From positions 1 to 25,004 of the forward strand of contig JAQBOT010000396.1 of assembly GCA_028287885.1 (NCBI GenBank): a stretch of DNA of 25,004 bases, in the 5' to 3' direction. The translations under genes and the position numbers were made by a program. The stretch's first letter is position 1, and each line of letters starts with the position of its first letter. Source of the stretch: Pedobacter sp. (lineage in GTDB: Bacteria; Bacteroidota; Bacteroidia; Sphingobacteriales; Sphingobacteriaceae). Under the pieces are notes generated by a model that was not told the DNA's origin, did no database searches, and saw only the letters and a program-made list of their open reading frames with translations. Shown here piece by piece: positions 2,151-18,354 of this stretch.

Positions 2151-2166
2151 GGTTAAAATAATATTA
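2151..2166 (+). promoter_or_regulatory. Candidate activator operator upstream of susC (copy 1 of a shared motif)
   Basis: The sequence GGTTAAAATAATATTA recurs with one change (GGTTAAAATAGTATTA) at 12886-12901, upstream of the second arm of the mannan locus. In both places the motif ends 21-22 bases before a -7-like box and begins 74-77 bases before the start codon. That position is typical for an activator contacting RNA polymerase near -40. The proposed binder is the locus AraC-family protein; this is an inference from context. Confidence 0.6.
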
Positions 2167-2188
2167 TAATAGAAATACAATGTGAGAT

Positions 2189-2196
2189 TAAATTTG
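2189..2196 (+). promoter_or_regulatory. -7 promoter box of the susC operon
   Basis: TAAATTTG fits the Bacteroidota -7 consensus TAnnTTTG exactly. It places transcription start near 2203 and leaves a leader of about 25 nt before the ATG at 2228. No clear TTG -33 element sits at the usual distance, which agrees with a promoter that needs an activator bound at 2151-2166. Confidence 0.6.
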
Positions 2197-2227
2197 GCTT
2201 ATAATTTACAACCAAATATTAAATCAT

Positions 2228-5200
2228 ATGAATACAACTTTACGAGCAATGTGCCTCTTCTTGCTGTGTTTTGTAGCCATCTCCACGATTCAGGCTCAAA
2301 ACAAACAAAGTAGGGTAATTACAGGAACTGTTTATGATGACAAAGGCACATCGTTGCCGGGCGCAGGTGTTTCTATTAAAGGCACAAAAACCGCAGTATC
2401 AACGAACTCAGATGGAAAGTTCTCGATTTCTGTACCAACAAATTCTACAACCTTGGTATTTACTTTCATAGGCATGGCGGCACAAGAAGTCGTTGTAGAT
2501 GGTAAAAACACAATTAATGTTCGTTTATCATCTTCCGCTACAAGCTTGTCAGATGTAGTTGTTATCGGGTATGGTACTCAGAAAAGACAAGACGTAAATG
2601 GTTCAATTTCATCTGTGTTGTCAAAAGACATCGCTAATGTTCCACAACCAAGTCTTGATCAGTTAATTCAAGGTAAAGCGTCTGGTGTAACAATCACTCA
2701 GAACTCCGGCGGTCCAGGAAGTGCGACTTCTGTTCACATCCGCGGTATTACATCTTTCGGCGGTAGCGAACCTTTATACGTTATCGATGGTGTTCCCATC
2801 CAGGGCGATGCAAAAAACACCAGTGGAAACGGACGTTCACCACAATTAACTCGCACAGGGGGTGGCCAAGAAGAAACTGGTACAAGTCCACTTTCCAGAA
2901 TCAATCCAAATGACATAGAATCTATCGACATCCTGAAGGATGCTTCTGCGACTGCGATTTATGGTAGCCGCGGTGCGAATGGTGTTGTAATTATTACAAC
3001 CAAGCGTGGTAAAAATGGTACAGCTAAAATTAGCTACGATGGTTATCTAGGTAGCCAAACGCAAGGCAAATTCCTTAAGATGATGGATTTAAGACAATTT
3101 GCAAGCCTGCAGAATGTTTTAGCCGACAAGTTTAGCCAGCAGAGAAGACAAGAGTTTTCTGATATTAGCCTATTGGGCTCAGGTACCGATTGGCAGCATG
3201 CAATATTCCAGACAGCTCCTCAACAAAGTCATCAACTTTCTGTATCAGGAGGAAAAGAGGGTATTGACTATTATGTGTCAGGAGGATATTTAAAGCAAGA
3301 AGGAACGATCATTGGAAGCGATTTCAAACGCTATTCATTCCGTACCAATGTGAACGGACAAGTAAAGGATTGGTTCAAAGTAGGAAGCAGCATCGCTGCT
3401 GCAAGAACTCAACAGAATATAGGTCTGGGCAGTAATACAGGTATCATATATAACGCGTTGTCAAGCGCTCCAGACAATCCTATTTACAATGCAGATGGTA
3501 CGTTTGCAGGTCCTTCAGTTGATGCAGGTGGTTTAGCGCAAGGCACAGTAAACCCAGTTGCACAGGCATTAAGCTTAACAAACACGCTATTAAGCAGCAA
3601 TGTTAATGGAAGCATGTACGCAGACGTCAAGTTCTTTAAAGACTTAACTTTGCACTCAGAATTAAACGGTGATTTTAGCTGGAATGAGGCTCAGACTTTT
3701 AAGCCAACTTACCAGTGGGGAGCGTTCAGCAACCAGACAGCCAGATTAGACCAATACAATTCAAACAGTACCTACTGGGGCTGGAAAGAATATCTAAATT
3801 ATTCACATACATTCGGTACAAAACATAGCTTAACGGGTCTTGCCGGTTATGAGGTTTGGGAATCAACTTGGGGAGGTGTTTCAAATAAAATAGAAAACTT
3901 CTCTAGCGGTAACATCATCCAGACACTTGGCTTTGGCGATCAAACAACTGATCTTATCGACCAGAATAAAGGCAGCCAGGTTATGGAGTCTTTCTTAGGT
4001 CGTGCTATCTATACATATAGCAACAGATATAGTGCAACGGTAAGTATTCGTTCAGATAAATCTTCCAAGTTTGCAGAAGGACATAAAGTAGGTTACTTCC
4101 CTGCAGTTGCACTTTCCTGGAGACTTTCTGAAGAGCCTTTCATGGCAAAAGCAAAAGGGATTGTTGACAACATTAAAATTAGATTGAACTACGGTGAGAC
4201 AGGTAATCAAAATATCCCGAATTATCTTTACGGTTCTTCAATCAAGGCTGTTGCAACCGGTTTAGGTACTGGATTTATAACAAATAACGTTGCTAATGCT
4301 GACTTAACTTGGGAATCCGCAATTCAAAAGGGAGCAGGTCTAGACTTCAGTTTACTAAATAGCCGTATCGACGCAAGTTTCGACTATTACGTAAAAACAT
4401 CTAAAAACTTCCTTTTTCAAAAGCCATTACCAGCCTTCTTGTTGGGTGGAGTCGCAGAATATTCAGGAGTAGCAGCAATTCAGTCTCCTTATTACAACGC
4501 GGGTCAGATCGAGAACAAAGGCTTTGAATTTAGTTTGAACTCAAGAAACTTAGTAGGCGGAGCTTTCAAGTGGAACACAACGCTAATTTTCTCAAAGTAT
4601 AAAAACCTTGTTAAATCACTAAACGGCAGTCCTGCATTAATTGGTAGCATTAACACAAGTTTCCTGAACATGCCGGTTACGAAGACGATTGAAGGTGGTC
4701 CGGTAGGTCAGTTCTTTGGTTATAGAGTTAAAGGTGTGATTCGGACTGAAGCAGATCTTCAATATATAGCTTCACACCCACAGAATGTAACAGGCGGAAC
4801 TTCACCTGCGGTAATTACAAATGATCCTGGAGTTGCCAACTCCATTTACCTAGGCGACTTACAATACGAAGACATCGATGGTGACGGAAAAGTAGATGCA
4901 AATGATCAGGTTGCACTCGGCAATCCAAACCCAGATTTCACATACAGTATTACAAACAACTTCACTTTCAAGAATTTCGACCTATCTATATTCTTAAACG
5001 GATCACATGGTGGTAAGATTCTTAATGCACTTAAATATCAAATTGCAGGATTATCAGGTTTGTACACCAACCAACTTGCTTCTTCAGCAAATTTCTGGAC
5101 ACCAACCAACTCTAATTCAAACATCCCTGCACCAAGAGGTGGTATTTCCAACAACAACTTGGTTATGTCAGACCGGTTCCTGGAAAGCGCTTCCTTCTTA

Positions 5201-5434
5201 AGGGTACAAAATGTAAGGTTGGGATATACTTTGCCAGAAAAGTGGATTAACAAGGCGAAGCTAAGCCGCTTTAACGTGTATGTAAGTGGACAAAACTTAT
5301 ATGTATTCACTAAGTACTCCGGCCTGGATCCAGAAATTGGTTCCCTAAACCAAAATCCAATTTATACCAATATAGATATGGGCAGGTATCCAATACCACG
5401 CACATTGACAGTTGGAATAAATGCACAGTTTTAA
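2228..5434 (+). CDS. SusC-like TonB-dependent outer-membrane transporter of the mannan locus
   Basis: This 1068-aa protein is a SusC/RagA-family outer-membrane transporter, full length for the family. In order it has a signal peptide (residues 1 to about 23, ending STIQA), a carboxypeptidase-regulatory-like beta-sandwich (about 28-103, ITGTVYDDKG...GVSIKGT), and the family signature VVVIGYGTQKRQDV before the plug. The plug carries LYVIDGVPIQG and ASATAIYGSRGANGVVIITT. A long beta-barrel follows, ending in a C-terminal aromatic residue (VGINAQF). SusC proteins import oligosaccharides across the outer membrane with energy from TonB-ExbBD, with SusD acting as a hinged lid. The gene is 18 bases upstream of susD and followed by mannanase genes, so its cargo is inferred to be mannan- or glucomannan-derived oligosaccharides. 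It opens the first arm and has a recognisable promoter and candidate operator directly upstream. Confidence 0.95.
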   Translation: MNTTLRAMCLFLLCFVAISTIQAQNKQSRVITGTVYDDKGTSLPGAGVSIKGTKTAVSTNSDGKFSISVPTNSTTLVFTFIGMAAQEVVVDGKNTINVRLSSSATSLSDVVVIGYGTQKRQDVNGSISSVLSKDIANVPQPSLDQLIQGKASGVTITQNSGGPGSATSVHIRGITSFGGSEPLYVIDGVPIQGDAKNTSGNGRSPQLTRTGGGQEETGTSPLSRINPNDIESIDILKDASATAIYGSRGANGVVIITTKRGKNGTAKISYDGYLGSQTQGKFLKMMDLRQFASLQNVLADKFSQQRRQEFSDISLLGSGTDWQHAIFQTAPQQSHQLSVSGGKEGIDYYVSGGYLKQEGTIIGSDFKRYSFRTNVNGQVKDWFKVGSSIAAARTQQNIGLGSNTGIIYNALSSAPDNPIYNADGTFAGPSVDAGGLAQGTVNPVAQALSLTNTLLSSNVNGSMYADVKFFKDLTLHSELNGDFSWNEAQTFKPTYQWGAFSNQTARLDQYNSNSTYWGWKEYLNYSHTFGTKHSLTGLAGYEVWESTWGGVSNKIENFSSGNIIQTLGFGDQTTDLIDQNKGSQVMESFLGRAIYTYSNRYSATVSIRSDKSSKFAEGHKVGYFPAVALSWRLSEEPFMAKAKGIVDNIKIRLNYGETGNQNIPNYLYGSSIKAVATGLGTGFITNNVANADLTWESAIQKGAGLDFSLLNSRIDASFDYYVKTSKNFLFQKPLPAFLLGGVAEYSGVAAIQSPYYNAGQIENKGFEFSLNSRNLVGGAFKWNTTLIFSKYKNLVKSLNGSPALIGSINTSFLNMPVTKTIEGGPVGQFFGYRVKGVIRTEADLQYIASHPQNVTGGTSPAVITNDPGVANSIYLGDLQYEDIDGDGKVDANDQVALGNPNPDFTYSITNNFTFKNFDLSIFLNGSHGGKILNALKYQIAGLSGLYTNQLASSANFWTPTNSNSNIPAPRGGISNNNLVMSDRFLESASFLRVQNVRLGYTLPEKWINKAKLSRFNVYVSGQNLYVFTKYSGLDPEIGSLNQNPIYTNIDMGRYPIPRTLTVGINAQF

Positions 5435-5452
5435 TATTTTAAAAGCTCAATC

Positions 5453-7063
5453 ATGAAAATTCAATTTAAATATATCATAGCATTGGCAACTGTAGCTGGC
5501 ATGACCACTTCAGGTTGCAAAAAAGACTTCTTTAACCGACCACCTGAAGACCAGTACACGGTAGGCGGGTACTATACAACTCCTTCACAGGTTCAATCCA
5601 GTACCAACGCGCTTTATGCAGCACCTTGGTTCGGCTGGAATACAAAGGTAAGCTGGGCAATAACTGAACTTGCAAGTGGTAACGGACGTAGTGGTTCGGA
5701 TGATGTTAAGGCATTCGGCAACTTTTCTGTCCCTAACGGCAACTTCGAGTTAAGTGCTGCCTGGAATTCATTGTTCACTGTTATAGCACAATCAAATGCG
5801 GTACTTTACAACTTACCAACTGTGCCTGCCTCGGTACCTAGACCGGTAGTAAACAATGCATTGGGTGAAGCTCATGTTTTACGTGCACTTGCTTATTTTC
5901 ACCTTGTGCGAATTTTTGGTAATGTGCCAATCATTGAGAATCCCTTGGACTTTGTTGGTAGCCCTTCAACAGTTCCAGTAAACCCAGTAACAGATGTATA
6001 TACCTTTATCATCAATGACTTGAAATTTGGAGAAGCAAACTGTACCCCGAATGTAGCCGGAACCGGCCATGTTTCAAGTGGATCCGCATCAGCCTTGCTT
6101 GCTAAAGTGTACTTGTACATGCAGGATTATGAAAATGCACGTAAGCAAGCAGAATTGGTTATTAACAGTCATGAATTTGGATTACTTGGGGTAGATGTAG
6201 CCGGCAAAACGTATGCTGATCTATTTAAAACAGCAAATAACAACAACAAAGAATCCATAATAGCATTACAGTGGCTTGCTACAGGTGGTTATGGCTTCGG
6301 TAATGGCGTTCAGGCATCTTTGGCTTATAGCAGCGAAATCACACAAACTGGAGACGGTTACGGTGTACTGGCTCCAACCTTCGATTTGTTAGATGCCTAC
6401 GAGCCAGGTGATGCAAGAAGAAAACCTACAGTGATGTTGCCTGGTGACTATTATCCCGAAATCAATATAGCAGGTGGTGGTTATACCGTACCAGCAAATG
6501 CTAGTTCTCAAGGTACACATTCACAGATAAAGAAATATGTTGTTGGATCTCCAGCAGATAATGGTGGGAAAAGTGCTTTCCAGTCGACTGGTATGAATAC
6601 TTACATGTTGCGTTTGGCAGATATGTATTTGATTGCTGCTGAGTCTATTTTGGGTAGCTCTGCAGGTGCCAGTGCCACTGGTCTTCCACTTACAGCAAGC
6701 ACAGCTGATGCAACTGCATTGAACTACTTCAACACAATAAGACAAAGAGCAGGTCTTGCGCCGAAAACCACAATAACCTTTGCAGATATCCTACACGAAA
6801 GACGTATGGAGTTTGCGATTGAAGGTGATTATTGGTTTGATTTATGTCGTATTGATGGTTTCAACTCTGCAAACCACCCTAAGGCAATTGCAATTATCAG
6901 CAAACAAGATAGGGGAGATTCAAATACCGACACTCCACCTAAACGCAATGGCAATGGTTATTTTACGCCGAAAAATTCTGATTTCTTATACCCTTATCCT
7001 GCAACAGAAGTAGCGAACGATCCGGCATTACTACAGCCCCCTGTACCTTACGTGTTCAAATAA
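5453..7063 (+). CDS. SusD/RagB-family surface lipoprotein
   Basis: This 536-aa protein pairs with the SusC transporter immediately upstream. It starts with a lipoprotein signal (lipobox TSGC, lipidated Cys22, followed by KK), so it is anchored in the outer membrane and most likely surface exposed. The N-terminal half shows the helical SusD pattern (ALGEAHVLRALAYFHLVRIFG, with the typical R-A-YF-L-R spacing). The C-terminal part contains ILHERRMEFAIEGDYWFDLCR, the characteristic RagB/SusD motif. SusD-like proteins bind glycan and gate the SusC barrel; ligand here is inferred to be mannan oligosaccharide from the neighbours. The 18-base spacing to susC indicates one transcript. Confidence 0.95.
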   Translation: MKIQFKYIIALATVAGMTTSGCKKDFFNRPPEDQYTVGGYYTTPSQVQSSTNALYAAPWFGWNTKVSWAITELASGNGRSGSDDVKAFGNFSVPNGNFELSAAWNSLFTVIAQSNAVLYNLPTVPASVPRPVVNNALGEAHVLRALAYFHLVRIFGNVPIIENPLDFVGSPSTVPVNPVTDVYTFIINDLKFGEANCTPNVAGTGHVSSGSASALLAKVYLYMQDYENARKQAELVINSHEFGLLGVDVAGKTYADLFKTANNNNKESIIALQWLATGGYGFGNGVQASLAYSSEITQTGDGYGVLAPTFDLLDAYEPGDARRKPTVMLPGDYYPEINIAGGGYTVPANASSQGTHSQIKKYVVGSPADNGGKSAFQSTGMNTYMLRLADMYLIAAESILGSSAGASATGLPLTASTADATALNYFNTIRQRAGLAPKTTITFADILHERRMEFAIEGDYWFDLCRIDGFNSANHPKAIAIISKQDRGDSNTDTPPKRNGNGYFTPKNSDFLYPYPATEVANDPALLQPPVPYVFK

Positions 7064-7116
7064 GAAAATATCAGGTTATTAAAAGCAAACCATTTACAAG
7101 ACAAAAAATTTAAGCA

Positions 7117-8313
7117 ATGAAAACTATCATAAATAGACAAAACAGGATCTTCTTGGTATTATCCATTCTGTTAGGAATAAGTCTCGCAGCCTGTAAAAAG
7201 GATAAGAACGAAGGTGGCAGCGGAGCTCCTGTAATTACACGAGTTAGAACAGTTAGTAAAACATTCGTAGATAGCACATTAACTACTACGATCGTTACTT
7301 ACGATGCTAACAGAAAAGCGACAACAAATACATTTGCTAATACAACGCCACAGACGGTTGCATTTGACTCTACAACTACGGAGGGTAAGCTTCAGAATAT
7401 GTATGCCATCATTGGAAGTAATTTTACAAGTGTTACTACAGTTACCTTTAACGGTGCCTCTGTATATTTTAACAAGGCATTGGGTACAGATAGCACCATC
7501 TTATTAAGCATTCCAAAAGATGCTCCGGCTGGTCCGACTCAGAGTAATATACTTCAGGTTACAACTTTGAACGGCATGGCAGAATTCAAGTTCGGTATTC
7601 TATTGCCTCCTCCAACGGTTTCAGAGGTTTCAACACTAAACTTTTCTGAAGGATCACAAGTTGTATTAACTGGTATCGGCCTGGGTTCTGTAACGGGGGT
7701 TAACCTTCAAGGTACCAACGCACAGGCAACCATCGTTGCCAAAGAAGATACAAAGTTGACGCTAAAAATGCCGTCAACAACGGTTAATTCAGCCAAACTG
7801 GTGTTTACTTACCCTTCTGGACAAGCGGCCAGTACACAGGAGTTTGTCAACCTGGACAACACTTATAAGTTTTTTACAGACGACTATAACAATGGTTGGT
7901 CTGGAAACTTCTGGGGTAAAGGCGAGGTATCAGGCGAAGCTGTAAAAACAGGCAGCAAATCTTTGAAGTTAACCTATGCTAAAGGAAACTGGAGCGCAAA
8001 TGGTGTTGCAAACTGGGCTACCGGTATGCCATTAACAACAGACTATAAATATTTATCTTTCTATTTAAAAGGTGGTTCAGTTGAATATACATTGTATATA
8101 ACAGCTGATAAACGGGCAGGTGGTTATGGCAACTCCGACCAGTCTGCTCCAATTGTTGTTCCTGCTAATGTATGGACGTATTATAAAATTCCATTGGCCT
8201 CCCTTGACCTTTGGCATAATGGTAGCCCGTACAACCAAATGGGCTTCTGGATCAAGGGCCCAGATGCGCAGGATGAATCATTCTATCTTGATGATCTTGT
8301 ATTTGTAAAGTAG
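7117..8313 (+). CDS. IPT/TIG-domain surface glycan-binding lipoprotein (SGBP-B type)
   Basis: This 398-aa lipoprotein (lipobox LAAC, Cys26, then KKDK) follows susD by 53 bases. Its middle contains two IPT/TIG-like immunoglobulin folds. The first is at about 90-165 (YAIIGSNFTSVTTVTFNGAS, then ILLSIPKDAPAG) and the second at about 168-245 (SEVSTLNFSEGSQVVLTGIGLG). The last ~150 residues form a beta-sandwich with many aromatic residues (YNNGWSGNFWGKGEVSG, ending ESFYLDDLVFVK). This arrangement matches the surface glycan-binding proteins encoded after susD in many Bacteroidota loci, where the C-terminal domain binds the polysaccharide and the Ig folds act as spacers. It has no catalytic motif. 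The ligand is inferred to be the mannan backbone. A strong terminator begins 18 bases after its stop. Confidence 0.87.
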   Translation: MKTIINRQNRIFLVLSILLGISLAACKKDKNEGGSGAPVITRVRTVSKTFVDSTLTTTIVTYDANRKATTNTFANTTPQTVAFDSTTTEGKLQNMYAIIGSNFTSVTTVTFNGASVYFNKALGTDSTILLSIPKDAPAGPTQSNILQVTTLNGMAEFKFGILLPPPTVSEVSTLNFSEGSQVVLTGIGLGSVTGVNLQGTNAQATIVAKEDTKLTLKMPSTTVNSAKLVFTYPSGQAASTQEFVNLDNTYKFFTDDYNNGWSGNFWGKGEVSGEAVKTGSKSLKLTYAKGNWSANGVANWATGMPLTTDYKYLSFYLKGGSVEYTLYITADKRAGGYGNSDQSAPIVVPANVWTYYKIPLASLDLWHNGSPYNQMGFWIKGPDAQDESFYLDDLVFVK

Positions 8314-8330
8314 TAATTCTAAAATTTGTT

Positions 8331-8373
8331 AACCTGGTCTGCAGTCATTATTGACTACAGGCCAGGTTTTTTT
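8331..8373 (+). terminator. Intrinsic terminator between the binding-protein gene and the first GH26 gene
   Basis: A long hairpin with arms starting AACCTGG and ending CCAGGTT, and inner pairing AGTCA/TGACT around a TTAT loop, is followed directly by a run of seven Ts that includes the last two bases of the arm. It ends only 19 bases before the next start codon, in the middle of a same-strand gene series, so it probably reduces, rather than blocks, expression of the downstream enzymes relative to the SusCD-binding protein genes. Confidence 0.85.
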
Positions 8374-8391
8374 ATACCTTAAATAAAAAAC

Positions 8392-9624
8392 ATGCAGTTC
8401 AATAATCGAATGTTATTTTCCTTAAGCTTGTTGTTAGCGATGCATGTTTCAGGCTGTAAAAAGGGCGCTATTACGCCTGTCGTAGCGCCCATTGTTCCGG
8501 CACCTGTAATTACGGTGGCGGCTCCAACAATGGCTACGGCTAAAAGCTGGCTTGTAGACAAGGGCGCAACAGATGAAACTGCAGCCTTATTCTACAACCT
8601 ACAGAAGGTTGCGAAAACCAATGTGCTTTTTGGTCATCAAGATGATACAAAACGTGGAGTTACAAATGCTTCCGGCCAATGGGCAAATGAACAACAATTC
8701 TCTGACGTTGCGTTTGATAAAAGCGATGTTAAAGCAATTACCGGTGCGTATCCGGCGGTTTATGGACACGACTTTCTGCATATCGCCAATTTTGCAACGG
8801 GTGCCTGGTTTGATTACGAGAAATCCACTGCACGCACCTTAACCATCGAAGCGTACAATCGTGGTGGTATTAATACCTATTGTTGGCATTACGCCAATCC
8901 TGTAAGTAAAGCCAGTTTCTACTGGGCGGACTCGCCAGTAGAAGCCGTTAGCAAAATTCTACCAGGTGGTTCTGAGAATACGACATTTAATAATTCATTA
9001 AAAACGATTGCCGATTACGCCAAAACTCTTGTTGGTGCAGATGGAAAGTTGATTCCAATTATCTTCAGGCCTTTTCATGAGATGGATGGCAATTGGTTCT
9101 GGTGGGGTAACGGTCACAGTACTTCAGCCCAATACATTGCCTTATACCAATACACTGTCACTTACCTGCGCGACAATTTAGGGGTCCATAACTTTATCTA
9201 CGCATGGTCTCCTGACCGCAATTTTACTTCTGAGGCTCAGTACATGAACTATTATCCAGGTGATGCATACGTAGATCTGCTCGGAACCGATAACTATGAA
9301 GACATGAAATCAGCCTCCCCTGAGGTTGCTGCATCGAAATTCCGCATTGTTTCCGACTACGCCAAGAACCACAACAAGCTGGCTGCCCTTACAGAAACAG
9401 GGTTGCAGAACGTATCTAAATCTGATTGGTTTACTCAACAATTATTGAAATCACTCAAGAGTCAAGGAGTAGAATTCGCTTATGCTTTAGTTTGGGCAAA
9501 TACAAAAGATGCCTATTGGACCCCATTTCCCGGACATCCCGCTGCTGCTGATTTACTTAAGTTCAAAAATGATGGATATGTGCTTTTCGGAGACAAACTT
9601 CCTTCCATGTACCAGATAAAATAA
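8392..9624 (+). CDS. GH26 beta-mannanase, lipoprotein (first of three)
   Basis: This 410-aa glycoside hydrolase family 26 enzyme is predicted to cleave beta-1,4-mannosidic bonds with retention of configuration. The N-terminus carries a lipobox (VSGC, Cys22, then KKG) and a Pro/Ala/Val-rich linker (about 27-45), so it is probably displayed on the outer membrane. The catalytic domain begins near residue 60 with LFGHQDDTKRG. The acid/base Glu230 lies in FRPFHEMDGNWFWWG and the nucleophile Glu335 in ALTETGL, both matching the family. It sits directly downstream of the SusCD-binding protein group but after a terminator, with a 6-base gap to the GH5 gene. A surface endo-mannanase making large fragments for SusC is the likeliest role; GH26 can also hold lichenase or xylanase activity, but the locus argues for mannan. 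Confidence 0.92.
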   Translation: MQFNNRMLFSLSLLLAMHVSGCKKGAITPVVAPIVPAPVITVAAPTMATAKSWLVDKGATDETAALFYNLQKVAKTNVLFGHQDDTKRGVTNASGQWANEQQFSDVAFDKSDVKAITGAYPAVYGHDFLHIANFATGAWFDYEKSTARTLTIEAYNRGGINTYCWHYANPVSKASFYWADSPVEAVSKILPGGSENTTFNNSLKTIADYAKTLVGADGKLIPIIFRPFHEMDGNWFWWGNGHSTSAQYIALYQYTVTYLRDNLGVHNFIYAWSPDRNFTSEAQYMNYYPGDAYVDLLGTDNYEDMKSASPEVAASKFRIVSDYAKNHNKLAALTETGLQNVSKSDWFTQQLLKSLKSQGVEFAYALVWANTKDAYWTPFPGHPAAADLLKFKNDGYVLFGDKLPSMYQIK

Positions 9625-9630
9625 CAAACA

Positions 9631-10626
9631 ATGAAAAAAACAAGAATGATCAAGTTCTACGCTGCTTTGGTTTGTGTAGCCATGTCCACTGGATTTTTAA
9701 AGAGCGAGGCTCAGGTGAAACCCCGGAACGCTGGAGTTTCTCCGTTGAAGGTTATAGATGGTAAGTTGCTGAATCAGCAGGGACAGCCAGCACAACTGCG
9801 AGGCATTAGCCTGTCTTGGAGCATTTGGGCTGGACGCAAATATTACAACCCAGATGTCGTAAGCTGGTTGAAAGCAGATTTCAAGATTAACTTACTCCGT
9901 GTTTCAATGGCGGTAGAGCCGGACAGCGGATACTTGCAGGATCCCATGGGGCAGGAGCAACTCGTAACTAAGATTATTGATGCGGCGATTAGCAAAGGCT
10001 TGTATGTACTCATTGACTGGCATGATCACCATGCAAATAAAAACCTGGTACAATCAAAAGCTTTTTTTGCGAAGATGTCAAAACGCTATACTGGTGTTCC
10101 GAATGTGATCTATGAAATCTGGAACGAACCTGAGCGAATAGACTGGAGTATTATAAAAAATTATGCGGAACAAGTTATAGCAGAGATCAGGAAGAATGAC
10201 AAGGATAATATCATCGTTGTGGGTAGTCCAAGCTGGGATCAGGATGTTGATGTCGCAGCCAAAGATCCAATCCAGGGGGTAAGCAACGTTGCTTATTCTT
10301 TTCACTTTTATGCATCAGATCCAGGTCACCAGGAGCATCTGATGGCAAAGGCTGACGAAGCTTTGAAATTGAAGTTACCCCTATTTGTCACTGAATGGGG
10401 AGTAGGAGAAGCAAATGGTGATGGCGAATTTAACGTCGCTTTAACTACAAAATGGCTAAATTGGATGGAAGCAAATCAGTTGAGCTGGGCAAACTGGAAC
10501 ATAACGGACAAGAAAGAAACTACTGCAATCCTCAATCCTGGTGCTTCTGTAAAGGGCCATTGGTCAACTGGGGATTTAACACCTGCAGGATTATACATTA
10601 GAAATCAGTTGAACAGATTAAATTAA
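9631..10626 (+). CDS. GH5 endo-glycanase (endoglucanase/glucomannanase type)
   Basis: This 331-aa single-domain glycoside hydrolase family 5 protein has a signal peptide (about residues 1-27, ending KSEAQ), so it is exported without a lipid anchor. Family landmarks are QLRGISLSWSIW near 57-68, the strand LLRVSMAVE, YVLIDWHDHHANKN, the acid/base Glu166 in VIYEIWNEPE, SFHFYA, and the nucleophile Glu255 in FVTEWGVG. The pattern resembles the bacterial endoglucanase-like GH5 group (subfamily 2 style) more than classical GH5 mannanases. In a mannan locus this suggests cutting next to glucose in glucomannan, or a genuine mannanase that diverged; the sequence alone does not decide. It lies 6 bases after GH26 and 5 bases before GH27, so these three genes form one tight unit. 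Confidence 0.88.
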   Translation: MKKTRMIKFYAALVCVAMSTGFLKSEAQVKPRNAGVSPLKVIDGKLLNQQGQPAQLRGISLSWSIWAGRKYYNPDVVSWLKADFKINLLRVSMAVEPDSGYLQDPMGQEQLVTKIIDAAISKGLYVLIDWHDHHANKNLVQSKAFFAKMSKRYTGVPNVIYEIWNEPERIDWSIIKNYAEQVIAEIRKNDKDNIIVVGSPSWDQDVDVAAKDPIQGVSNVAYSFHFYASDPGHQEHLMAKADEALKLKLPLFVTEWGVGEANGDGEFNVALTTKWLNWMEANQLSWANWNITDKKETTAILNPGASVKGHWSTGDLTPAGLYIRNQLNRLN

Positions 10627-10631
10627 TACCT

Positions 10632-11864
10632 ATGAAAAACTTAATTGCGGCATTGTTGATCTCCGCCTCCGGGCTGAGCGCATCCGCTCAAGGAAATAAT
10701 TACGTCCAAAATTACAAGAAATTTGACAACCTCGCCATGACACCCCCAATGGGTTGGAATAGCTGGAACAAGTTTGCCTGTAATGTAGATGAAGGCTTAA
10801 TTCGTCAGACTGCTGATGCAATGGTGAGTTCTGGAATGAGAGATGCCGGATACACGTACATTAATATTGACGATTGCTGGCACGGGGAAAGAGATAGCCT
10901 GGGTTTCATACACGAAGATCCCAAACGTTTTCCATCCGGAATGAAGGCCCTAGCTGATTACATTCATTCGAAAGGTTTAAAGATGGGAATTTACTCAGAC
11001 GCCGGATCTCAAACCTGCGGCGGCCGTCCAGGTAGCCGAGGTTTTGAATTTCAAGATGCAAAAACCTATGCAAGCTGGGGCATAGATTATTTGAAATACG
11101 ATTGGTGTAATACAGACGGCTTAAAGGCAGAAGGCGCGTACAAGACAATCACTGCCGCGCTGCGCAAGGCAGGAAGGCCGATGGTTTTAAGTATTTGTGA
11201 ATGGGGAACAGATAAACCATGGGCATGGGGCCCTGAAGTTGGGCACCTATGGCGTACCACTGGCGACATATACAACTGTTTCGATTGTATAGAGGACAAC
11301 GGTACATGGAAAGCCTGGGGCGTAATGCAGATCCTTGACAAGCAGGAGGGATTACGGAAATATGCAGGTCCGGGGCACTGGAATGATCCGGATATGCTCG
11401 AGATCGGTAATGGAAAATTAACACCTTCTGAAGATCGTGCGCATTTTTCTATGTGGGCCATGATTGCTGCGCCACTAATTGCCGGAAATGACCTACGCAA
11501 TATGAATCAAGAGACCAAAGCTGTCCTTAATAACAAAAATGTAATTGCTGTTAACCAGGATGTTCTGGGGATTCAGGGCTTCAAATATGCCGTTCGCGAT
11601 AGCGTAGAGATCTGGTTCAAGCCTCTAAATCAAGGCAAATGGGCTGTAGCTTTTCTAAATAGGTCTAAAAACGTCAAAAAGATCAACTTCGATTGGAAGG
11701 CTGAAACTGTTAAAGATGAAATATTTAAGAAAGACCTGAATTCACAGCAACAGGTATATAAATTAAAGAACCTTTGGACCAATAAAGCTTCTGGCACTAC
11801 AAAGTCTTCATTGACAGCAAAGCTACCTGCACATGATATTTTGATGATGCAGCTAGAGAAATAA
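10632..11864 (+). CDS. GH27 alpha-galactosidase
   Basis: This 410-aa enzyme of glycoside hydrolase family 27 removes alpha-1,6-linked galactose side chains from galactomannan or galactoglucomannan. A signal peptide (ending SASAQ, cleavage near residue 19) points to the periplasm or outside. The barrel starts with the family signature MTPPMGWNSWNKFAC and continues with YTYINIDDCWHGERD and MGIYSDAGSQTCGGRPGS. The nucleophile is Asp157 in YLKYDWC and the acid/base is Asp212 in LWRTTGDI. The C-terminal ~100 residues form the usual antiparallel beta domain. It is the last gene of the first arm, 5 bases after GH5, and ends at a hairpin shared with the convergent regulator gene. Removing galactose exposes the backbone to the mannanases and the disaccharide pathway. 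Confidence 0.95.
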   Translation: MKNLIAALLISASGLSASAQGNNYVQNYKKFDNLAMTPPMGWNSWNKFACNVDEGLIRQTADAMVSSGMRDAGYTYINIDDCWHGERDSLGFIHEDPKRFPSGMKALADYIHSKGLKMGIYSDAGSQTCGGRPGSRGFEFQDAKTYASWGIDYLKYDWCNTDGLKAEGAYKTITAALRKAGRPMVLSICEWGTDKPWAWGPEVGHLWRTTGDIYNCFDCIEDNGTWKAWGVMQILDKQEGLRKYAGPGHWNDPDMLEIGNGKLTPSEDRAHFSMWAMIAAPLIAGNDLRNMNQETKAVLNNKNVIAVNQDVLGIQGFKYAVRDSVEIWFKPLNQGKWAVAFLNRSKNVKKINFDWKAETVKDEIFKKDLNSQQQVYKLKNLWTNKASGTTKSSLTAKLPAHDILMMQLEK

Positions 11865-11869
11865 ATTGA

Positions 11870-11906
11870 TCCGGAATGAGGTTTAAATGAAAACCCTCGT
11901 TCCGGA
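11870..11906. terminator. Bidirectional terminator between GH27 and the AraC-type gene
   Basis: TCCGGAATGAGG (11870-11881) pairs with CCTCGTTCCGGA (11895-11906) with a single G-T wobble, and three more T-A pairs extend the stem past a bulged C. T-rich stretches flank it on both strands (ATAATTTT to the right, ATTTATTT to the left when read on the minus strand). The hairpin can end transcripts from both sides. Its right arm lies inside the last codons of the regulator gene. Confidence 0.75.
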
Positions 11907-12758
11907 ATAATTTTCCCTGAATTCCTTAGGGGTACACTGCTTTTTCTTTTTAAAGAAACGATTGAAATTTGAAATGTTGTTGAAGCCGCAGTTGTACGAT
12001 ATCTCAGCAATAGAATGTGTAGTCTCTATGAGCATTTTGGTTGCATGCCCCAATCGAATTTCGTTTAAGCTGTCTATAAACGTATTCCCAGTTCGCTTTT
12101 TGATGAACCTGCTGAACGACACCTCAGTCATGCTTACCAATTTAGAGATGTCCTTTAAAGAAACAGGCTTATGAAAATTTGCGTTCATAAATTCATAAGC
12201 CTTGTCGATCCGGCGACTGTTATAATTAAACAGTTGGTCGTTATTAAAGCTAACATCCGATAAGAGCCGCATAGACTTAGAGGTAGAAAGCTGGTGCAGA
12301 ATACTCATAAGTTCCAATACAGAATCGAAGCCCTGCATTTGATTGATCGCAAGTAGCCTTTTGGAAACAAGTTGTGCCGTTTCCTTCGGGAACAAAATGC
12401 CGCGTGCCGAGCGTTCGAACATCCTCCTAATGAATGCCAGTTGATTTCTCTTCAGCAGTTTGTCGTCAAATAGATCTTTGTGCCATTGAATCGTCACCTC
12501 TGTTATTTCCTCGCGTTTGCAGTTGTGGGTAAGCCAAACATGTGACAAGTTCGGTCCGATTAGTACCAGGTCTATATCGTTGATATCTTCAACATTGTCG
12601 CCTACAATCCGCCTTGCACCCTTTGCATTTATAACCAGGTTCAACTCATAATCTTCATGAAAATGCAATGGAAAATTGAATTCATGTTTTACTCTTGAAA
12701 ATATCGTAAAGCAGTCGCTTTGCGTTAATGGCGTTATTTCTTTAATGATGTTGTTCAT
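11883..12758 (-). CDS. AraC-family transcriptional regulator of the mannan locus
   Basis: This 291-aa regulator has an N-terminal cupin-like sensing domain (about 25-110) with the histidine/glutamate pattern FPLHFHEDYELNLV (His32, His34, Glu38) and HVW at 73-75. A C-terminal AraC double helix-turn-helix (about 205-285) follows: MTEVSFSRFIKKRTG for the first, HSIAEISYNCGFNNISNFNR for the second, then CTPKEFREN. It has no membrane segment, so it would sense a cytoplasmic ligand, perhaps an imported mannobiose or mannosyl-glucose. The frame continues upstream to a TTG at 12851, but the ATG at 12758 (MNNIIKEITPLTQ) begins where related regulators begin. It reads toward GH27 and away from the second arm. 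The likely targets are the two promoters that share the GGTTAAAATA motif; this is inferred. Confidence 0.9.
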   Translation of the reverse strand: MNNIIKEITPLTQSDCFTIFSRVKHEFNFPLHFHEDYELNLVINAKGARRIVGDNVEDINDIDLVLIGPNLSHVWLTHNCKREEITEVTIQWHKDLFDDKLLKRNQLAFIRRMFERSARGILFPKETAQLVSKRLLAINQMQGFDSVLELMSILHQLSTSKSMRLLSDVSFNNDQLFNYNSRRIDKAYEFMNANFHKPVSLKDISKLVSMTEVSFSRFIKKRTGNTFIDSLNEIRLGHATKMLIETTHSIAEISYNCGFNNISNFNRFFKKKKQCTPKEFRENYSGTRVFI

Positions 12759-12885
12759 ACAATCCAATGGTTGGTTTGTATTGTTGTCTCTGTAAAAAAG
12801 CATCAATACACTTTTATAAATATAATCGTTTTTCGCGATCCAGCGCAACAATATATGGTGTATGGTCGATTAATCTATGTGAATT
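12759..12885. other. Divergent upstream region of the AraC-type gene
   Basis: This spacer lies between the regulator start and the operator of the second arm. On the minus strand TATATTTA (12817-12824) is one base from the -7 consensus TAnnTTTG and would give a leader of about 50 nt for the regulator. That is only a weak promoter call. No gene is seen here. Confidence 0.3.
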
Positions 12886-12901
12886 GGTTAAAATAGTATT
12901 A
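12886..12901 (+). promoter_or_regulatory. Candidate activator operator upstream of the second arm (copy 2 of the shared motif)
   Basis: GGTTAAAATAGTATTA matches 15 of 16 bases of the motif at 2151-2166 upstream of susC. The hexamer TGAATT also precedes both copies (12880-12885 directly; 2139-2144 with a 6-base spacer), and GTGAGATT follows both (12909 and 2182). The equal placement relative to the start codon (74 versus 77 bases) supports a functional site for a common regulator. Confidence 0.6.
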
Positions 12902-12922
12902 CTGTGTCGTGAGATTGATGCC

Positions 12923-12930
12923 TAATTTAG
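12923..12930 (+). promoter_or_regulatory. -7-like promoter box of the second arm
   Basis: TAATTTAG differs in one base from TAnnTTTG. It lies 21 bases after the shared operator motif and 37 bases before the ATG at 12960, compared with 22 and 39 bases for the susC promoter. The parallel geometry is the main support, since the box itself is imperfect. Confidence 0.5.
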
Positions 12931-12959: not shown

Positions 12960-14099
12960 ATGAACATGAACATCCAACCCGTATTCAGGTGGCTGGCCAT
13001 CCTGTTGTTTTTATCCATCCATTGTTACCCAAGCTACGGGCAGCAGGCGGACATAAAGGCAACAACACAAACCAAAAAGCTTTACAAGAACCTATTTAGT
13101 CTTTTGGGTAAATCCGTATTATTCGGGCACCAGGACGATCTTGCCTATGGCATTGGTTGGAAATATGAAAAGAACCGGAGTGACATTAAAGAGTTAACTG
13201 GAGATTATCCTTCGATGTTCGGCTGGGACATCTCCGGAATTGAAAAGGATAAAACGGAAAACATAGACGGTGTATCTTTTGGTAAAATGAAAGAATTTAT
13301 TCGGAAGGCTTATGATATGGGTACTGTTAACACCATCAGCTGGCACTTAGACAACCCATTAAACGGAAAAACCGCCTGGGACACCACTTCAACAACTGTT
13401 CCTTCCATACTTCCCGGGGGCGTTAAACACCAGCTATATAAAACCTGGCTAGACAAGGTAGCTGTATTTATGGCTGACCTGAAAGGCACAGATGGAAAAG
13501 CAATTCCAATCCTCTTCAGGCCTTATCATGAACTTACCGGCAGCTGGTTCTGGTGGGGTAAGAATGAATGTTCCCCTGCAGACTATATCGCACTTTACCG
13601 CTTTACAGAAGATTATCTAAAGAAATCAAAAGGGATTCACAACCTGATCTATGTGTATAATGTTTCCGATTTCAAATCTACATCGGATTATCTGGAGCGA
13701 TATCCCGGAGATAACTATATCGATATTCTAAGTTTTGATGCCTACCAATATGGGCCGGTTTCCAATGGAGCTGCTTTTTCAAAAGACCTTCAATCTAAAC
13801 TTGCCATACAACAGAAAATTGCTGAAGAACATGGTAAGATCATGGCAATAGCGGAACTTGGATACCTGGAGATTCCAGATGCAAACTGGTGGACTAAAGT
13901 ATTATGGGAAGGGATGAAAGACTATAAGGTCTCTTACATTATGCCTTGGAGAAATGTCGGCTTTCGTCCTGTTGAGAAAGATAATCATTACTTCGCCCCG
14001 TATAAGGGACAGACCTCAGCAGCGGACTTCATTAACTTTTATAATCTAGACAAGCTGATGTTCCAAAAGAAAGCAAGTCAATACAAACTCTATAAGTAA
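12960..14099 (+). CDS. GH26 beta-mannanase, soluble exported form (second of three)
   Basis: This is a 379-aa GH26 enzyme with a signal peptide (MNMNIQPVFRWLAILLFLSI, cleaved near GYQQ-like SYGQQ) and no lipobox, so it is probably periplasmic. It contains LFGHQDDLAYGIGW, MFGWDISG, INTI-like VNTISWHLDNP, the acid/base Glu191 in FRPYHELTGSWFWWG and the nucleophile Glu299 in AIAELGY. The nucleophile context differs from the ALTETG of the other two copies, hinting at a distinct subsite or product profile. The frame extends to a GTG at 12909, but that would place the promoter box inside the gene, so the ATG at 12960 was chosen. Its stop overlaps the next GH26 start by one base. A mannobiose-releasing role in the periplasm fits the downstream transporter and epimerase; this is inferred. 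Confidence 0.9.
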   Translation: MNMNIQPVFRWLAILLFLSIHCYPSYGQQADIKATTQTKKLYKNLFSLLGKSVLFGHQDDLAYGIGWKYEKNRSDIKELTGDYPSMFGWDISGIEKDKTENIDGVSFGKMKEFIRKAYDMGTVNTISWHLDNPLNGKTAWDTTSTTVPSILPGGVKHQLYKTWLDKVAVFMADLKGTDGKAIPILFRPYHELTGSWFWWGKNECSPADYIALYRFTEDYLKKSKGIHNLIYVYNVSDFKSTSDYLERYPGDNYIDILSFDAYQYGPVSNGAAFSKDLQSKLAIQQKIAEEHGKIMAIAELGYLEIPDANWWTKVLWEGMKDYKVSYIMPWRNVGFRPVEKDNHYFAPYKGQTSAADFINFYNLDKLMFQKKASQYKLYK

Positions 14100-15256
14100 T
14101 GATTTTTAAAATTATACGAAGACTTCCTGCACTGCTAATACCACTGTTCCTCATTTGTTCCTGCAGCAGCAGAATTGTAAATCAAGGCATTGCCAAAAAC
14201 AATACGGTCGACAAAAAAGCCAGCAGGGAAACCAAGGCATTATTTTATAATTTGAAACGAACTGCAGGCAAAGGTTTCCTATTCGGACAGCAGGATGCAA
14301 GCATGTACGGGGTAGGATGGACCGGAGATTCAGACCGAAGCGACGTCAAATCTGTAACAGGATCTCATCCTGCCTTATTCGGTTGGGATTTGGAGGGGGT
14401 TGCAAAAGATGATTCAGAAGCCAACCTAAGCAAAAATGCAGAACGAATTAGAAAGCTTTGCATTGAAGCCTATCTTAAGGGCGGAGTAAATACGCTAAGT
14501 TGGCACATGCAGAACTTCGTAACAGGGAAAAACTTTTACGATACCACGCGCTGTGTTACAGCTATACTTCCCGGGGGCGCAAACCATGAGTCTTTTGTTA
14601 AGGCCTTGGATCATATTGCTGATTTTATCGGTTCTCTTAAAACTAAGAATGGTCAAGCCGTTCCCGTTATTTTCAGACCATTTCATGAGCATACCGGCAA
14701 TTGGTTCTGGTGGGGCAAACCGTTCTGCAGCACAGATGAGTTTAAAGCACTATGGCAATTCACCATTCATTACTTTAGAGATAAAAAGCAGCTACATAAT
14801 GTTTTGTACGCGTATTCCCCTGATCGGATTTCAGGTAATTTCGACAATTATCTGGAACGTTATCCCGGAGACAACTATGTAGATGTTCTAGGTTACGATG
14901 ACTACTGGGAGTTTAAAGACATTAAAGACACCACAAGCATGAAGTTGGGCGTCAAAGCACTTGCGCAGATCGCATCTTATGCGATATCGAAAAACAAGGT
15001 AGCGGCATTAACTGAGACCGGTTTGGAGAAGATCCCTGAAAACGTTTGGTTCACCACGTTGCTGAAAATGATCAAGTCCGACCCAATGGCATCGAAGATT
15101 TCCTACTTAATGGTTTGGCGAAACGCGCATACCGGTCATTTTTATGCGCCATATCCTGGGCATAGCAGTGTTCCTGATTTCCTCAACTTTTTCAACGACC
15201 CTCAAACGCTGTTCTTAAATGATATCCAGCATACATTTTATCAAACAGCAAAATAG
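14099..15256 (+). CDS. GH26 beta-mannanase, predicted lipoprotein (third of three)
   Basis: This 385-aa GH26 enzyme starts with a positively charged, hydrophobic N-terminus ending LICSC, an acceptable lipobox with Cys22. The catalytic domain has LFGQQDASMYGVGW, LFGWDLEGVA, VNTLSWHMQNF, the acid/base Glu197 in FRPFHEHTGNWFWWG and the nucleophile Glu306 in ALTETGLE. It overlaps the previous GH26 gene by one base (TAATG at 14097-14101), so the two are probably translated in a coupled way. The copies are clearly homologous but well diverged, so this is an old duplication rather than a recent one. Related GH26 pairs in other Bacteroidota divide labour between endo cutting at the surface and mannobiose release in the periplasm. 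Which copy does which here cannot be fixed from sequence. Confidence 0.9.
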   Translation: MIFKIIRRLPALLIPLFLICSCSSRIVNQGIAKNNTVDKKASRETKALFYNLKRTAGKGFLFGQQDASMYGVGWTGDSDRSDVKSVTGSHPALFGWDLEGVAKDDSEANLSKNAERIRKLCIEAYLKGGVNTLSWHMQNFVTGKNFYDTTRCVTAILPGGANHESFVKALDHIADFIGSLKTKNGQAVPVIFRPFHEHTGNWFWWGKPFCSTDEFKALWQFTIHYFRDKKQLHNVLYAYSPDRISGNFDNYLERYPGDNYVDVLGYDDYWEFKDIKDTTSMKLGVKALAQIASYAISKNKVAALTETGLEKIPENVWFTTLLKMIKSDPMASKISYLMVWRNAHTGHFYAPYPGHSSVPDFLNFFNDPQTLFLNDIQHTFYQTAK

Positions 15257-15298
15257 ACTTTGCTAGTTCATAGCATATAAACACCGCAAGAATTAAAT

Positions 15299-17125
15299 AT
15301 GAAATTACAACTTATCGATATCTCTATTCTGTTGCTTTATCTCGCAACCATGATTTTTATTGGGTTCTGGTACCGAAAGAAAGCGAAGCAGAATAAGGAA
15401 AGTTACATGCTGGGCGGTAAGTCGCTGCCTTGGTATAAACTCGGACTGAGTGATGCTTCAGATATGTTCGACATCAGCGGAACCATGTGGATGGTGGCAC
15501 TTTGTTTCGTTTACGGTTTGAAAAGCATCTGGATTCCATGGCTTTGGCCAGTCTTCAATCAAGTTTTCATGATGATGTTTTTAAGCAAGTGGCTCCGTCG
15601 AAGTAACGCAAATACAGGAGCAGAATGGCTGCAAACCAGGTTTGGACTAACGGGTAAAGGGGTTAGAGCTTCACACATTGTAGTTATTGCCTTTGCCTTG
15701 CTTAGCTGCTTTGGTTTCCTTGCCTATGGATTTATAGGACTGGGTAAGTTCATGGAAATTTTTATCCCATGGGATGTGGTCAAAGGTTATGTACCCTTTG
15801 ACGTACCAGCGGCTTATGTACCACACGTATACGGAATCGTTTTTACCCTGTTTGCAATGTTTTATTCCATTCTCGGCGGTATGCACAGTATTGTACTTGG
15901 TGACATGATTAAGTATGCGATCATGACGGTTGCCTGTATTGCAATTGCGGTCATTGCAATGACTCATTTAAAAGGTAACACGCTTAATGTGCCAAAAGGT
16001 TGGGACAACCCATTCTTTGGATGGAAGCTGGATCTCGACTGGAGCCGCATTGCTGCGGATGCGAACAAGAAAATTGCCGACGATGGTTTTAGCTTGTTTA
16101 GCTTGTTTTTCGGAATGATGTTGCTAAAAGGTGTGTTTGCTTCCCTGGCCGGCCCGGCACCAAACTATGACATGCAGAAAGTTCTAAGTACCCGTAGCCC
16201 GAAAGATGCAAGTAAAATGACCGGCTTTGTAAGCATCATATTACTGCCCATTCGGTATTCCATGGTTATCGGCTTAACGGTACTAGCACTGCTGTACTAC
16301 AATCAGCTGCATTTAAAAGGACCGGATGGCATTACGGACTTCGAAAGGATTTTACCGGCAACAATCAATAATTTTCTGCCGGTCGGGGTACTTGGATTGG
16401 TCCTTACAGGATTGTTGGGTGCGTTTATGGGTACATTTAGCGGTACCCTGAATGCAGCGCAGGCCTATATCGTTAATGATATATACCTTAAATATATTAA
16501 TCCTACTGCGAGTACAAAAAAGATCATCTCAATGAATTATATCGTCGGCATTCTGGTGGTTATTATTGGAATTGCATTGGGCTTTTTCGCCAGAAATGTA
16601 AACGATATTTTGCAATGGATAGTGGGCGGTCTTTATGGAGGTTATGTAGCTGCAAACTGCCTCAAGTGGTTTTGGTGGCGTTTCAATGCCAATGGCTTTT
16701 TCTGGGGAATGGCTGTTGGAATTGTAGCGGCACTGGTTATGCCCTACGTTACCGTTGGACTGCCGCTCTACTGGTGGCCAGCCTTATTCCTGCTGTCGCT
16801 TTCTGGAAGTATAATTGGAACGTATGCAGCTCCAGCAACAGAGGAGGCGGTACTTAAGTCTTTTTATAAGACGGTTAGGCCATGGGGTTTCTGGACGCCA
16901 GTTCACAACCTGGTCGTAGCCGAAGACCCAACATTCGTAGCGAACAATCGATTTAAGCTGGACATGTTCAATGTGGTTTTGGGAATTATTGCGCAGCTCT
17001 GTCTAACCATCTTACCAATGTACTTTATTTTGAGTATGCATACTCCATTGTGGATCACCCTTGCGGTCCTCGCAGTAATCATTGCCGTGTTGAAAAGAAC
17101 ATGGTGGGACAAATTAGAAGATTAA
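15299..17125 (+). CDS. Sodium:solute symporter (SSS family), probable disaccharide importer
   Basis: This 608-aa inner-membrane protein has about 14 hydrophobic segments, starting with ISILLLYLATMIFIGFWY at the N-terminus and ending with a segment ITLAVLAVIIAVL before a basic tail. Typical SSS features are SYMLGGKSLPWYKLGLSDAS after the first helix, GGMHSIVLGDMIKY in the middle, and the GALMGTFSGTLNAAQAYI-like region around 385-400. The family couples sugar uptake to Na+. It lies 42 bases after the GH26 pair and 17 bases before the phosphorylase. In Bacteroides fragilis a sugar transporter gene belongs to a comparable cluster with a GH26 mannanase, mannosylglucose phosphorylase and epimerase (recalled from the literature). 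The likely substrate is beta-1,4-mannobiose or mannosyl-glucose; this is inferred from context, as SSS sequence does not reveal substrate. Confidence 0.9.
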   Translation: MKLQLIDISILLLYLATMIFIGFWYRKKAKQNKESYMLGGKSLPWYKLGLSDASDMFDISGTMWMVALCFVYGLKSIWIPWLWPVFNQVFMMMFLSKWLRRSNANTGAEWLQTRFGLTGKGVRASHIVVIAFALLSCFGFLAYGFIGLGKFMEIFIPWDVVKGYVPFDVPAAYVPHVYGIVFTLFAMFYSILGGMHSIVLGDMIKYAIMTVACIAIAVIAMTHLKGNTLNVPKGWDNPFFGWKLDLDWSRIAADANKKIADDGFSLFSLFFGMMLLKGVFASLAGPAPNYDMQKVLSTRSPKDASKMTGFVSIILLPIRYSMVIGLTVLALLYYNQLHLKGPDGITDFERILPATINNFLPVGVLGLVLTGLLGAFMGTFSGTLNAAQAYIVNDIYLKYINPTASTKKIISMNYIVGILVVIIGIALGFFARNVNDILQWIVGGLYGGYVAANCLKWFWWRFNANGFFWGMAVGIVAALVMPYVTVGLPLYWWPALFLLSLSGSIIGTYAAPATEEAVLKSFYKTVRPWGFWTPVHNLVVAEDPTFVANNRFKLDMFNVVLGIIAQLCLTILPMYFILSMHTPLWITLAVLAVIIAVLKRTWWDKLED

Positions 17126-17142
17126 GATAGTTTATAGAACAA

Positions 17143-18342
17143 ATGATAGATTTTAACAAAAGACTGCAGAAGTTGCAAGAAGCACATGCAGCTTTCATCA
17201 AGTTACCGAACGCAAAAATTGCAGAAAGCAATGGCGTATACAACAGGTATGAACACCCGGTGCTTACTGCGGCGCATGCACCATTAACCTGGAGGTATGA
17301 TTTTAATCCCGAAACAAACCCGTTTCTTATGGAACGGATCGGAATCAATGCAGTTTTTAATGCCGGAGCCATAAAACTTGACGGAAAATACCTGCTTGTT
17401 GCCAGGGTGGAAGCACTAGATAGAAAGTCGTTCTTTGCTGTGGCAGAAAGTCCCAACGGTATTGATAACTTCCAGTTCTGGGAAAAACCTGTTGCATTAC
17501 CGGAAACTGAAGAACCCGATACAAACGTTTATGACATGCGTGTAATCCAACATGAAGATGGCTGGATTTATGGTTTATTCTGTACAGAGCGGAAAGACCC
17601 TGCCGCACCTGCAACAGACCAGTCGATGGCTATTGCGCAATGCGGCATTGTACGTACAAAAGACCTGAAAATTTGGGAACGTCTGCCAGATTTAAAAACC
17701 CCATCTCCGCAACAGCGGAACGTGGTATTACACCCTGAATTTGTTGAGGGTATGTATGGTTTTTACACGCGTCCGCAAGATGGATTCATTGAATCAGGAA
17801 CCGGCGGAGGGATTGGCTTCGGTTTAAGCGCCAGCATTGAGAACGCCGTGATCACAAAAGAAATTATAGTTGATAATAAGCAGTATCATACCGTGTATGA
17901 GGCTAAAAATGGTCTCGGCCCGGAACCGATTAAGACGGAAAAGGGCTGGTTACACCTGGCACATGGCGTTAGGAACACCGCTGCTGGCTTACGTTATGTA
18001 TTGTATATGTTTATGACAGACCTGCAGGACTTAACCAAGGTCATTCACAAGCCGGCTGGGTATTTTATAGCGCCAATGGGGGAAGAGCGAATTGGCGACG
18101 TATCAAACGTAGTCTTTGCAAATGGCTGGATCAAGGATGAGGATGGCAAAGTGTTTATCTATTATGCTTCATCTGACACAAGAATGCATGTAGCAACCAG
18201 TACTATAGAGCAGTTGATGGATTACGTGATTAACACGCCTGAGGATGGTTTAAGATCGGCTACATCTGTTCAGTCGATCAATAAAATCGTTGATGACAAC
18301 AAACGCTTTTCTTTAGAAAGCGGTATATTTCAGGAACAATAA
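17143..18342 (+). CDS. GH130 4-O-beta-D-mannosyl-D-glucose phosphorylase
   Basis: This 399-aa cytoplasmic enzyme (no signal peptide) is predicted to split mannosyl-beta-1,4-glucose with inorganic phosphate into alpha-mannose-1-phosphate and glucose. It shows the GH130 five-bladed propeller pattern. Landmarks are [20 protein letters not shown] near 46-65, [19 protein letters not shown], the catalytic Asp131 in [25 protein letters not shown] and [20 protein letters not shown]. Asp131 has the same number as the proton donor reported for the Bacteroides fragilis enzyme, as recalled. Length and motifs fit the mannosylglucose phosphorylase subfamily (GH130_1) better than mannooligosaccharide phosphorylases. 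It lies directly before the epimerase that makes its substrate, so together they replace a beta-mannosidase and save one ATP equivalent per disaccharide. Confidence 0.93.
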
Positions 18343-18354
18343 GTGGATGCTGCC

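Follow-up and report, generated by a model that had tools for sequence, protein, structure and literature searches.

A candidate operator for an AraC-family regulator shared by both arms of a Pedobacter beta-mannan utilisation locus and recurring in related Bacteroidota

How might two separate arms of one polysaccharide-utilisation locus be switched on together? The question is raised by a beta-mannan utilisation locus of Pedobacter sp., contained in a stretch of 25,004 nucleotides (nt; contig JAQBOT010000396.1, here called the window), in which a surface/degradation arm and an import/phosphorolysis arm run in the same direction and a gene for an AraC-family protein lies between them on the opposite strand. 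A sequence-only reading of the window had noticed a 16-base sequence before each arm and had proposed it as the binding site of one activator, most likely this AraC-family protein. We followed the site through the genome, the genus and wider relatives. From the comparison of sequences, we put at about 0.83 the probability that the AraC-type one-component regulator binds a shared operator and co-activates both arms.

Both candidate activator sites are on the forward strand. Site 1, GGTTAAAATAATATTA, precedes the susC arm at 2151..2166 (core 2152-2166), and site 2, GGTTAAAATAGTATTA, precedes the import/phosphorolysis arm at 12886..12901 (core 12887-12901). Each is followed on the same strand by a −7-type box: TAAATTTG at 2189..2196 in the susC promoter, 22 nt from the 16-mer, and TAATTTAG at 12923..12930 in the GH26 promoter, 21 nt from it. 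The former matches the −7 consensus TAnnTTTG and the latter is one base off. The ATG codons at 2228 and 12960 lie 77 and 74 bases, respectively, downstream of the first base of the 16-mer. The 16-mers, the boxes and their spacings to each other and to the start codons were all found where the sequence-only reading had placed them. Allowing three mismatches, GGTTAAAATARTATTA had two matches in the window, both exact, with 0.81 expected and 18 of 100 shuffles reaching two, so that the window alone is weak evidence.

The assembly from which the window comes (3,416,165 bases, 498 contigs, 92% complete) contains two exact matches to GGTTAAAATANTATTA, both in the window, and one more at one mismatch. 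At up to two mismatches there were 21 matches versus 16 for the reversed control, which puts the weaker matches at background, and an extension of the regulon within this genome by such matches was rejected for that reason. The looser core GWTAAAATANTAYTR matched 22 times at up to one mismatch, no more often than its reversed control (22). Only two of these near-copies had TAnnTTWG at 21/22 nt, and both were the window sites. The genome scan that had been suggested with the original claim thus left the two exact copies as the only ones with a −7 box at the proper distance.

Orthologs of the AraC-family protein at ≥60% identity occurred in 25 of the 99 genomes compared (own genome included), the next matches falling to 39%; 26 ortholog loci besides the window were read, with up to 40 kb around each. 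Comparison of the upstream regions, close to another suggested check, favoured the claim: in each of the six two-arm genomes of the genus set (G000, G035, G011, G030, G046 and G040), the core stood before both arms with no more than one mismatch. Copies at the susC arms of these genomes started 76-78 nt before the ATG and those at the other arms 73-88 nt before it. In the other five two-arm genomes, the susC arms had the −7 box TAAATTTG (once TAACTTTG) at 22 nt and the GH26 arms had TAnnTTAG at 21-22 nt; the variant of the −7 box is arm-specific, with the TAAATTTG type at susC and TAnnTTAG at GH26. Twenty-two of the 26 ortholog loci had a copy with two mismatches or fewer in the gap separating araC from the divergent gene. 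Among relatives, site 1 is kept before susC, and site 2 before either GH26 or the symporter.

The fixed geometry extends to 80 loci of wider relatives (L133-L212), whose regulator orthologs are 63-92% identical; they come from Pedobacter, Mucilaginibacter, Solitalea, Sphingobacterium, Chitinophaga, Niastella, Hymenobacter, Flectobacillus and others, and several of their genomes overlap the genus set. Across 1.50 Mb, both strands counted, these loci held 104 copies of the core at up to one mismatch, followed within 61 nt by 58 TAnnTTWG boxes, of which 23 stood at 21 nt, 28 at 22 nt and 7 elsewhere. The reversed pattern gave 27 hits and eight shuffles 9-23 hits each, none with a box at 21/22 nt. 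We also searched with a composite defined from the window only (GTTAAAATARTATTA, then 21/22 nt, then TAnnTTWG), which was found in 34, 47 and 54 of the 80 loci at up to one, two and three mismatches; the reversed control gave 0, 0 and 1 sites, and eight wrong offsets 0, 2 and 4. A weight matrix, derived from sites in the window and in these 80 loci, found a composite scoring ≥18 in 74 of 80 loci (110 sites versus 3 in reversed sequence), a result that is partly self-testing because the matrix was trained in part on the same loci. This applies as well to the strict sites and the araC-upstream copies counted below, which were scored with that matrix; the out-of-sample tests are the window-only composite and loci from other families. 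Because the summed score admits copies without a proper −7 box, a strict two-part rule was used in later counts. Among 24 matches from other families of the class, we read the 18 that had a locus: the strict composite occurred in 9 of these (10 sites, 9 with SusC or GH26 behind them; reversed control, 0). Comparison of genomes supports one shared site for both arms, as first proposed: it is conserved at both arms, holds a fixed 21/22-nt spacing and recurs beside orthologs in other genera and families.

Presence of the core follows presence of the regulator gene. Among 60 genus genomes, the exact core GWTAAAATAGTATTA was found in 19 of 24 with an ortholog versus 2 of 36 without, and its reversed control in 5 of 24 versus 6 of 36. 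The 99 genomes contained 29 exact-core matches: 22 were in ortholog-bearing genomes, 17 of them with a −7 box at 21/22 nt, and none of the 7 in ortholog-less genomes had such a box. Across 301 family genomes, the exact core occurred in 64 of 119 with an ortholog versus 20 of 182 without (p = 7e-16) and the control in 28 of 119 versus 31 of 182 (p = 0.18), p-values that overstate independence because the genomes compared are related. In 53 of the 64 ortholog-bearing family genomes with the exact core, a copy lay within 30 kb of araC. A check for the composite covered 30 loci out of 98 core matches in the family genomes and found it in 15 of 21 loci from ortholog-bearing genomes. The choice of the intervening AraC-family protein as the most likely binder is favoured by this association of site and araC ortholog across genomes.

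The genes behind the sites are those of mannan use. Counting the window, 56 loci hold 70 strict sites. The longest frame to open within roughly 400 nt behind the site encodes SusC at 24 of them, the symporter at 15, GH26 at 15 and the epimerase at 1, with no direct hit at 15. For twelve of these 15, tblastn located SusC, the symporter, GH26 or GH130 in the next 2.5 kb (at L209, after araC itself); at L175, L206 and L211 it found none of the four over that distance. By eye, the first frames behind L206, L157 and L152 resemble GH30, GH5 and a sugar:cation symporter, respectively. The best SusC match per locus had a median identity of 41% to the SusC of the window (range 29-84%), with a long match in 37 of 80 loci. 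Median identities were 67% for the regulator (80 loci), 73% for the symporter (53 loci) and 73% for GH130 (59 loci), and matches to these three stayed at 63-92% across the 80 loci. Since SusC varies while the regulator, symporter and GH130 do not, the outer-membrane part seems to have been exchanged under a constant operator. We lean towards a dedicated one-component beta-mannan regulon older than the split of Sphingobacteriales, Chitinophagales, Cytophagales and other Bacteroidia, in which the regulator, the 15-bp operator and its distance to the −7 box stayed fixed, the operator replaces the −33 element, and SusC/SusD were exchanged.

How the site could act is suggested by its place in the promoter. 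A class II activator site adjoins the core promoter near −41, where the activator touches RNA polymerase. In the mapped promoters of Flavobacterium psychrophilum, as given in the available text of PMC9723704, positions −12 to −5 are taken by the sigma-A −7 box; with the box so placed, the core would span −49 to −35 at 22 nt or −48 to −34 at 21 nt, and transcription starts are predicted near 2201 and 12935. The site centre would then fall at −42 or −41, in agreement with the class II position near −41.5. TTTG 18-21 nt before the −7 box (the −33 element) was present in only 2 of 70 strict sites, in part because the core covers most of that place, and in Flavobacterium johnsoniae a −33 motif was likewise not identified, according to the available text of PMC7366714. 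We infer that both 16-mers represent a single operator (core GWTAAAATAGTATTA) recognised by the AraC-family protein between the arms. This operator would end 21-22 nt before each −7 box, span about −49 to −34 and stand in for the −33 element. The inducer, judged from the pathway, is probably imported mannobiose or mannosyl-glucose; sensed by the regulator, it would cause both the surface/degradation and the import/phosphorolysis arm to be turned on together. Many relatives have an additional, usually weaker copy immediately before the araC start, through which the regulator probably restrains its own production.

The likely binder is encoded at 11883..12758 on the minus strand, a 291-amino-acid (aa) protein assigned on HTH_18, the ortholog alignment and a fold model. 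Its start is probably ATG 12758 and not TTG 12851, from comparison of orthologs. Pfam finds HTH_18 (E 3e-21) and HTH_AraC (E 4e-8), and a profile of the orthologs matches solved AraC-type domains; no NCBIfam model reached its cut-off among the 25 of 31 matches listed. With 291 aa and only AraC-type DNA-binding domains in Pfam, the protein lacks the architecture of a hybrid two-component system (HTCS). The N-terminal region has no Pfam domain, and its predicted fold matches E. coli AraC (2arc) with a TM score of 0.57 on the target. At full length, the model, which is of moderate quality (pLDDT 77.4, pTM 0.55), matches ToxT/Rns at a TM score of about 0.5. This moderate result points to an N-terminal cupin-type sensor/dimerisation domain. 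Associations between operator base 2 (T or A) and regulator residues were best at residue 2, outside the DNA-binding domain (p 9e-7), and give no conclusion because they are confounded by descent.

Of 81 loci, the window among them, 54 had a copy scoring ≥14 bits at 10-95 nt before the araC start, versus 11 of 81 in the reversed control. In ten loci, from Mucilaginibacter plus one unclassified metagenome-assembled genome (L172, L180, L185, L188, L192, L193, L202, L203, L204 and L208), a weaker copy 36-46 nt before araC, mostly GTTAAATTCGTATCA, encloses the −7-like box of that gene, TAAATTCG. Because an operator copy contains the box itself, this arrangement suggests negative autoregulation.

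Several results weigh against the proposed regulon. In six of the 80 loci, not even the loose threshold yields a composite, and in the genus set a close copy beside araC is absent at G017:C10, G043:C16, G018 and G094. The exact core is missing from 55 of the 119 ortholog-bearing family genomes, which presumably carry forms of the core with 1-2 mismatches. The composite was present in 2 of 9 loci from genomes without a detected ortholog (L244 and L252), and the composite check took in 9 of the 20 ortholog-less core-bearing family genomes, with 11 outside it. To these are added the relatedness of the genomes behind the p-values and the overlap of core and −33 position already mentioned. The recognition helices rank among the better-conserved parts of the DNA-binding domain but not at the top, since 10-13 of 90 windows equal or exceed them. 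Near araC in the window, the best copy reached 10.4 bits, within the control range, and a third operator at that place was rejected. A scan of 46 offsets for a second half-site gave z 2.9 at −21, 2.7 at −16 and 2.3 at −18, which is suggestive only, as −21, the best offset for a dimer half-site, does not stand clearly above its neighbours. As a separate observation, G017:C10 and G043:C16 are each one of two copies of the regulator ortholog in their genome and lie beside symporter and GH130 genes without a close operator copy.

A regulator other than the intervening AraC-family protein, such as a hybrid system, could bind the site. Hybrid-system control through direct 16-bp repeats with a 5-bp spacer has been predicted for alpha-mannan loci of Bacteroides, according to the available text of PMC3878776, and in the beta-mannan locus of Muricauda, according to the available text of PMC9860051, a hybrid system occurs together with an AraC-type factor. 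L267 has the exact core, followed at 21 nt by a −7 box, before a gene that by eye resembles a two-component sensor, and the two composites in genomes without a detected ortholog fit this explanation as well. We nevertheless consider it unlikely, given that the core tracks this particular araC ortholog, lies close to it in most core-bearing family genomes and recurs upstream of it far above the reversed control. (L264 holds a stretch similar to that of L267, a possible link between the two types of regulator.)

Slightly less probable still, in our judgement, is that the AraC-family protein binds but represses both arms, or works as a two-way switch, until an inducer releases it. E. coli AraC is a two-way switch, and the Mucilaginibacter copies near araC overlap that gene's own −7 box. 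At the operon promoters, however, the site keeps a constant 21/22 nt to the −7 box that follows it and occupies the −33 position, where an activator and not a blocker would be expected. That the 16-mer is a general promoter element, an upstream A-rich stretch or a variant −33 box, or a product of chance, we regard as very improbable. It is A+T-rich and close to the −7 box, the window-only statistics are weak, and near-copies in the genome are no commoner than in the reversed control; against this stand the mere two composites among the 22 genome near-copies, the reversed and shuffled controls in relatives, and the mannan genes behind the sites. Co-activation of both arms by the AraC-type protein is the reading we retain.

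Set among known systems, the regulon proposed here has good support and, though new, is of a familiar type. The E. coli proteins AraC, RhaS and MelR are AraC/XylS-family activators at class II promoters. The regulator described here would share with them a C-terminal domain of two helix-turn-helix motifs and a site abutting the core promoter near −41, and with AraC, in the model, an AraC-like N-terminal domain. It differs in having a Bacteroidota −7 box without a −33 TTTG, beta-mannan target genes, and one strong core of 15 bp accompanied at most by a weak second half-site. To our knowledge, few one-component sugar regulators of Bacteroidota have a known operator. In B. thetaiotaomicron, the available text of PMC3878776 describes alpha-mannan loci as predicted to be under hybrid two-component systems (HTCS_Man) and mannosides as under the GntR-type ManR. 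The protein studied here shares with HTCS_Man an AraC-type DNA-binding domain and a predicted role at mannan loci, and its possible, weak second half-site would repeat at 21 bp as in the HTCS_Man operators; the HTCS_Man regulators, as presented in that text, are hybrid sensor kinases for alpha-mannan with direct repeats, whereas the present protein is a 291-aa one-component regulator for a beta-mannan locus. In Muricauda sp. MAR_2010_75, beta-mannans induce the genes of a beta-mannan locus all together, and, as here, an AraC-type regulator (FG28_RS02325) lies amid GH26, GH5, GH27, GH130, symporter and SusC/D genes; for FG28_RS02325, the available text describes no binding site and does not contain the word promoter (PMC9860051). 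No earlier description of the motif was found among the open-licence papers listed, judged by their titles and abstracts. The proposal names an operator, a regulator and a target set, all open to parallel testing across many species, and the motif can serve to locate beta-mannan operons in bare DNA sequence. It is also a clear candidate case in this phylum of an activator site replacing the −33 element.

The octamer GTGAGATT, which follows both operator copies in the window (2182-2189 and 12909-12916), had been taken for a further shared element. It was present in none of the other 68 strict sites (2 of 70 overall, both in the window) and was ruled out as a conserved second element; its recurrence is possibly due to chance.

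The genes of the locus complete the picture. The surface/degradation arm (2228-11864, plus strand) encodes SusC, SusD, a 398-aa protein, GH26, GH5 and GH27, beginning with the SusC-type TonB-dependent receptor at 2228..5434 (plus strand). The 398-aa protein after SusD (7117-8313) has no match in Pfam or NCBIfam and is perhaps a surface glycan-binding protein. The import/phosphorolysis arm (12960..19557, plus strand) encodes two GH26 enzymes, a sodium:solute symporter, a GH130 phosphorylase and an AGE-type epimerase; the start of its first gene was set at ATG 12960 and not at ATG 12918, because the latter falls within the promoter. Downstream of the locus, on the minus strand, are a SASA-type esterase with a weak jelly-roll match (19561-21522), possibly a mannan deacetylase, and a protein of the erythromycin-esterase family (21831-23123).

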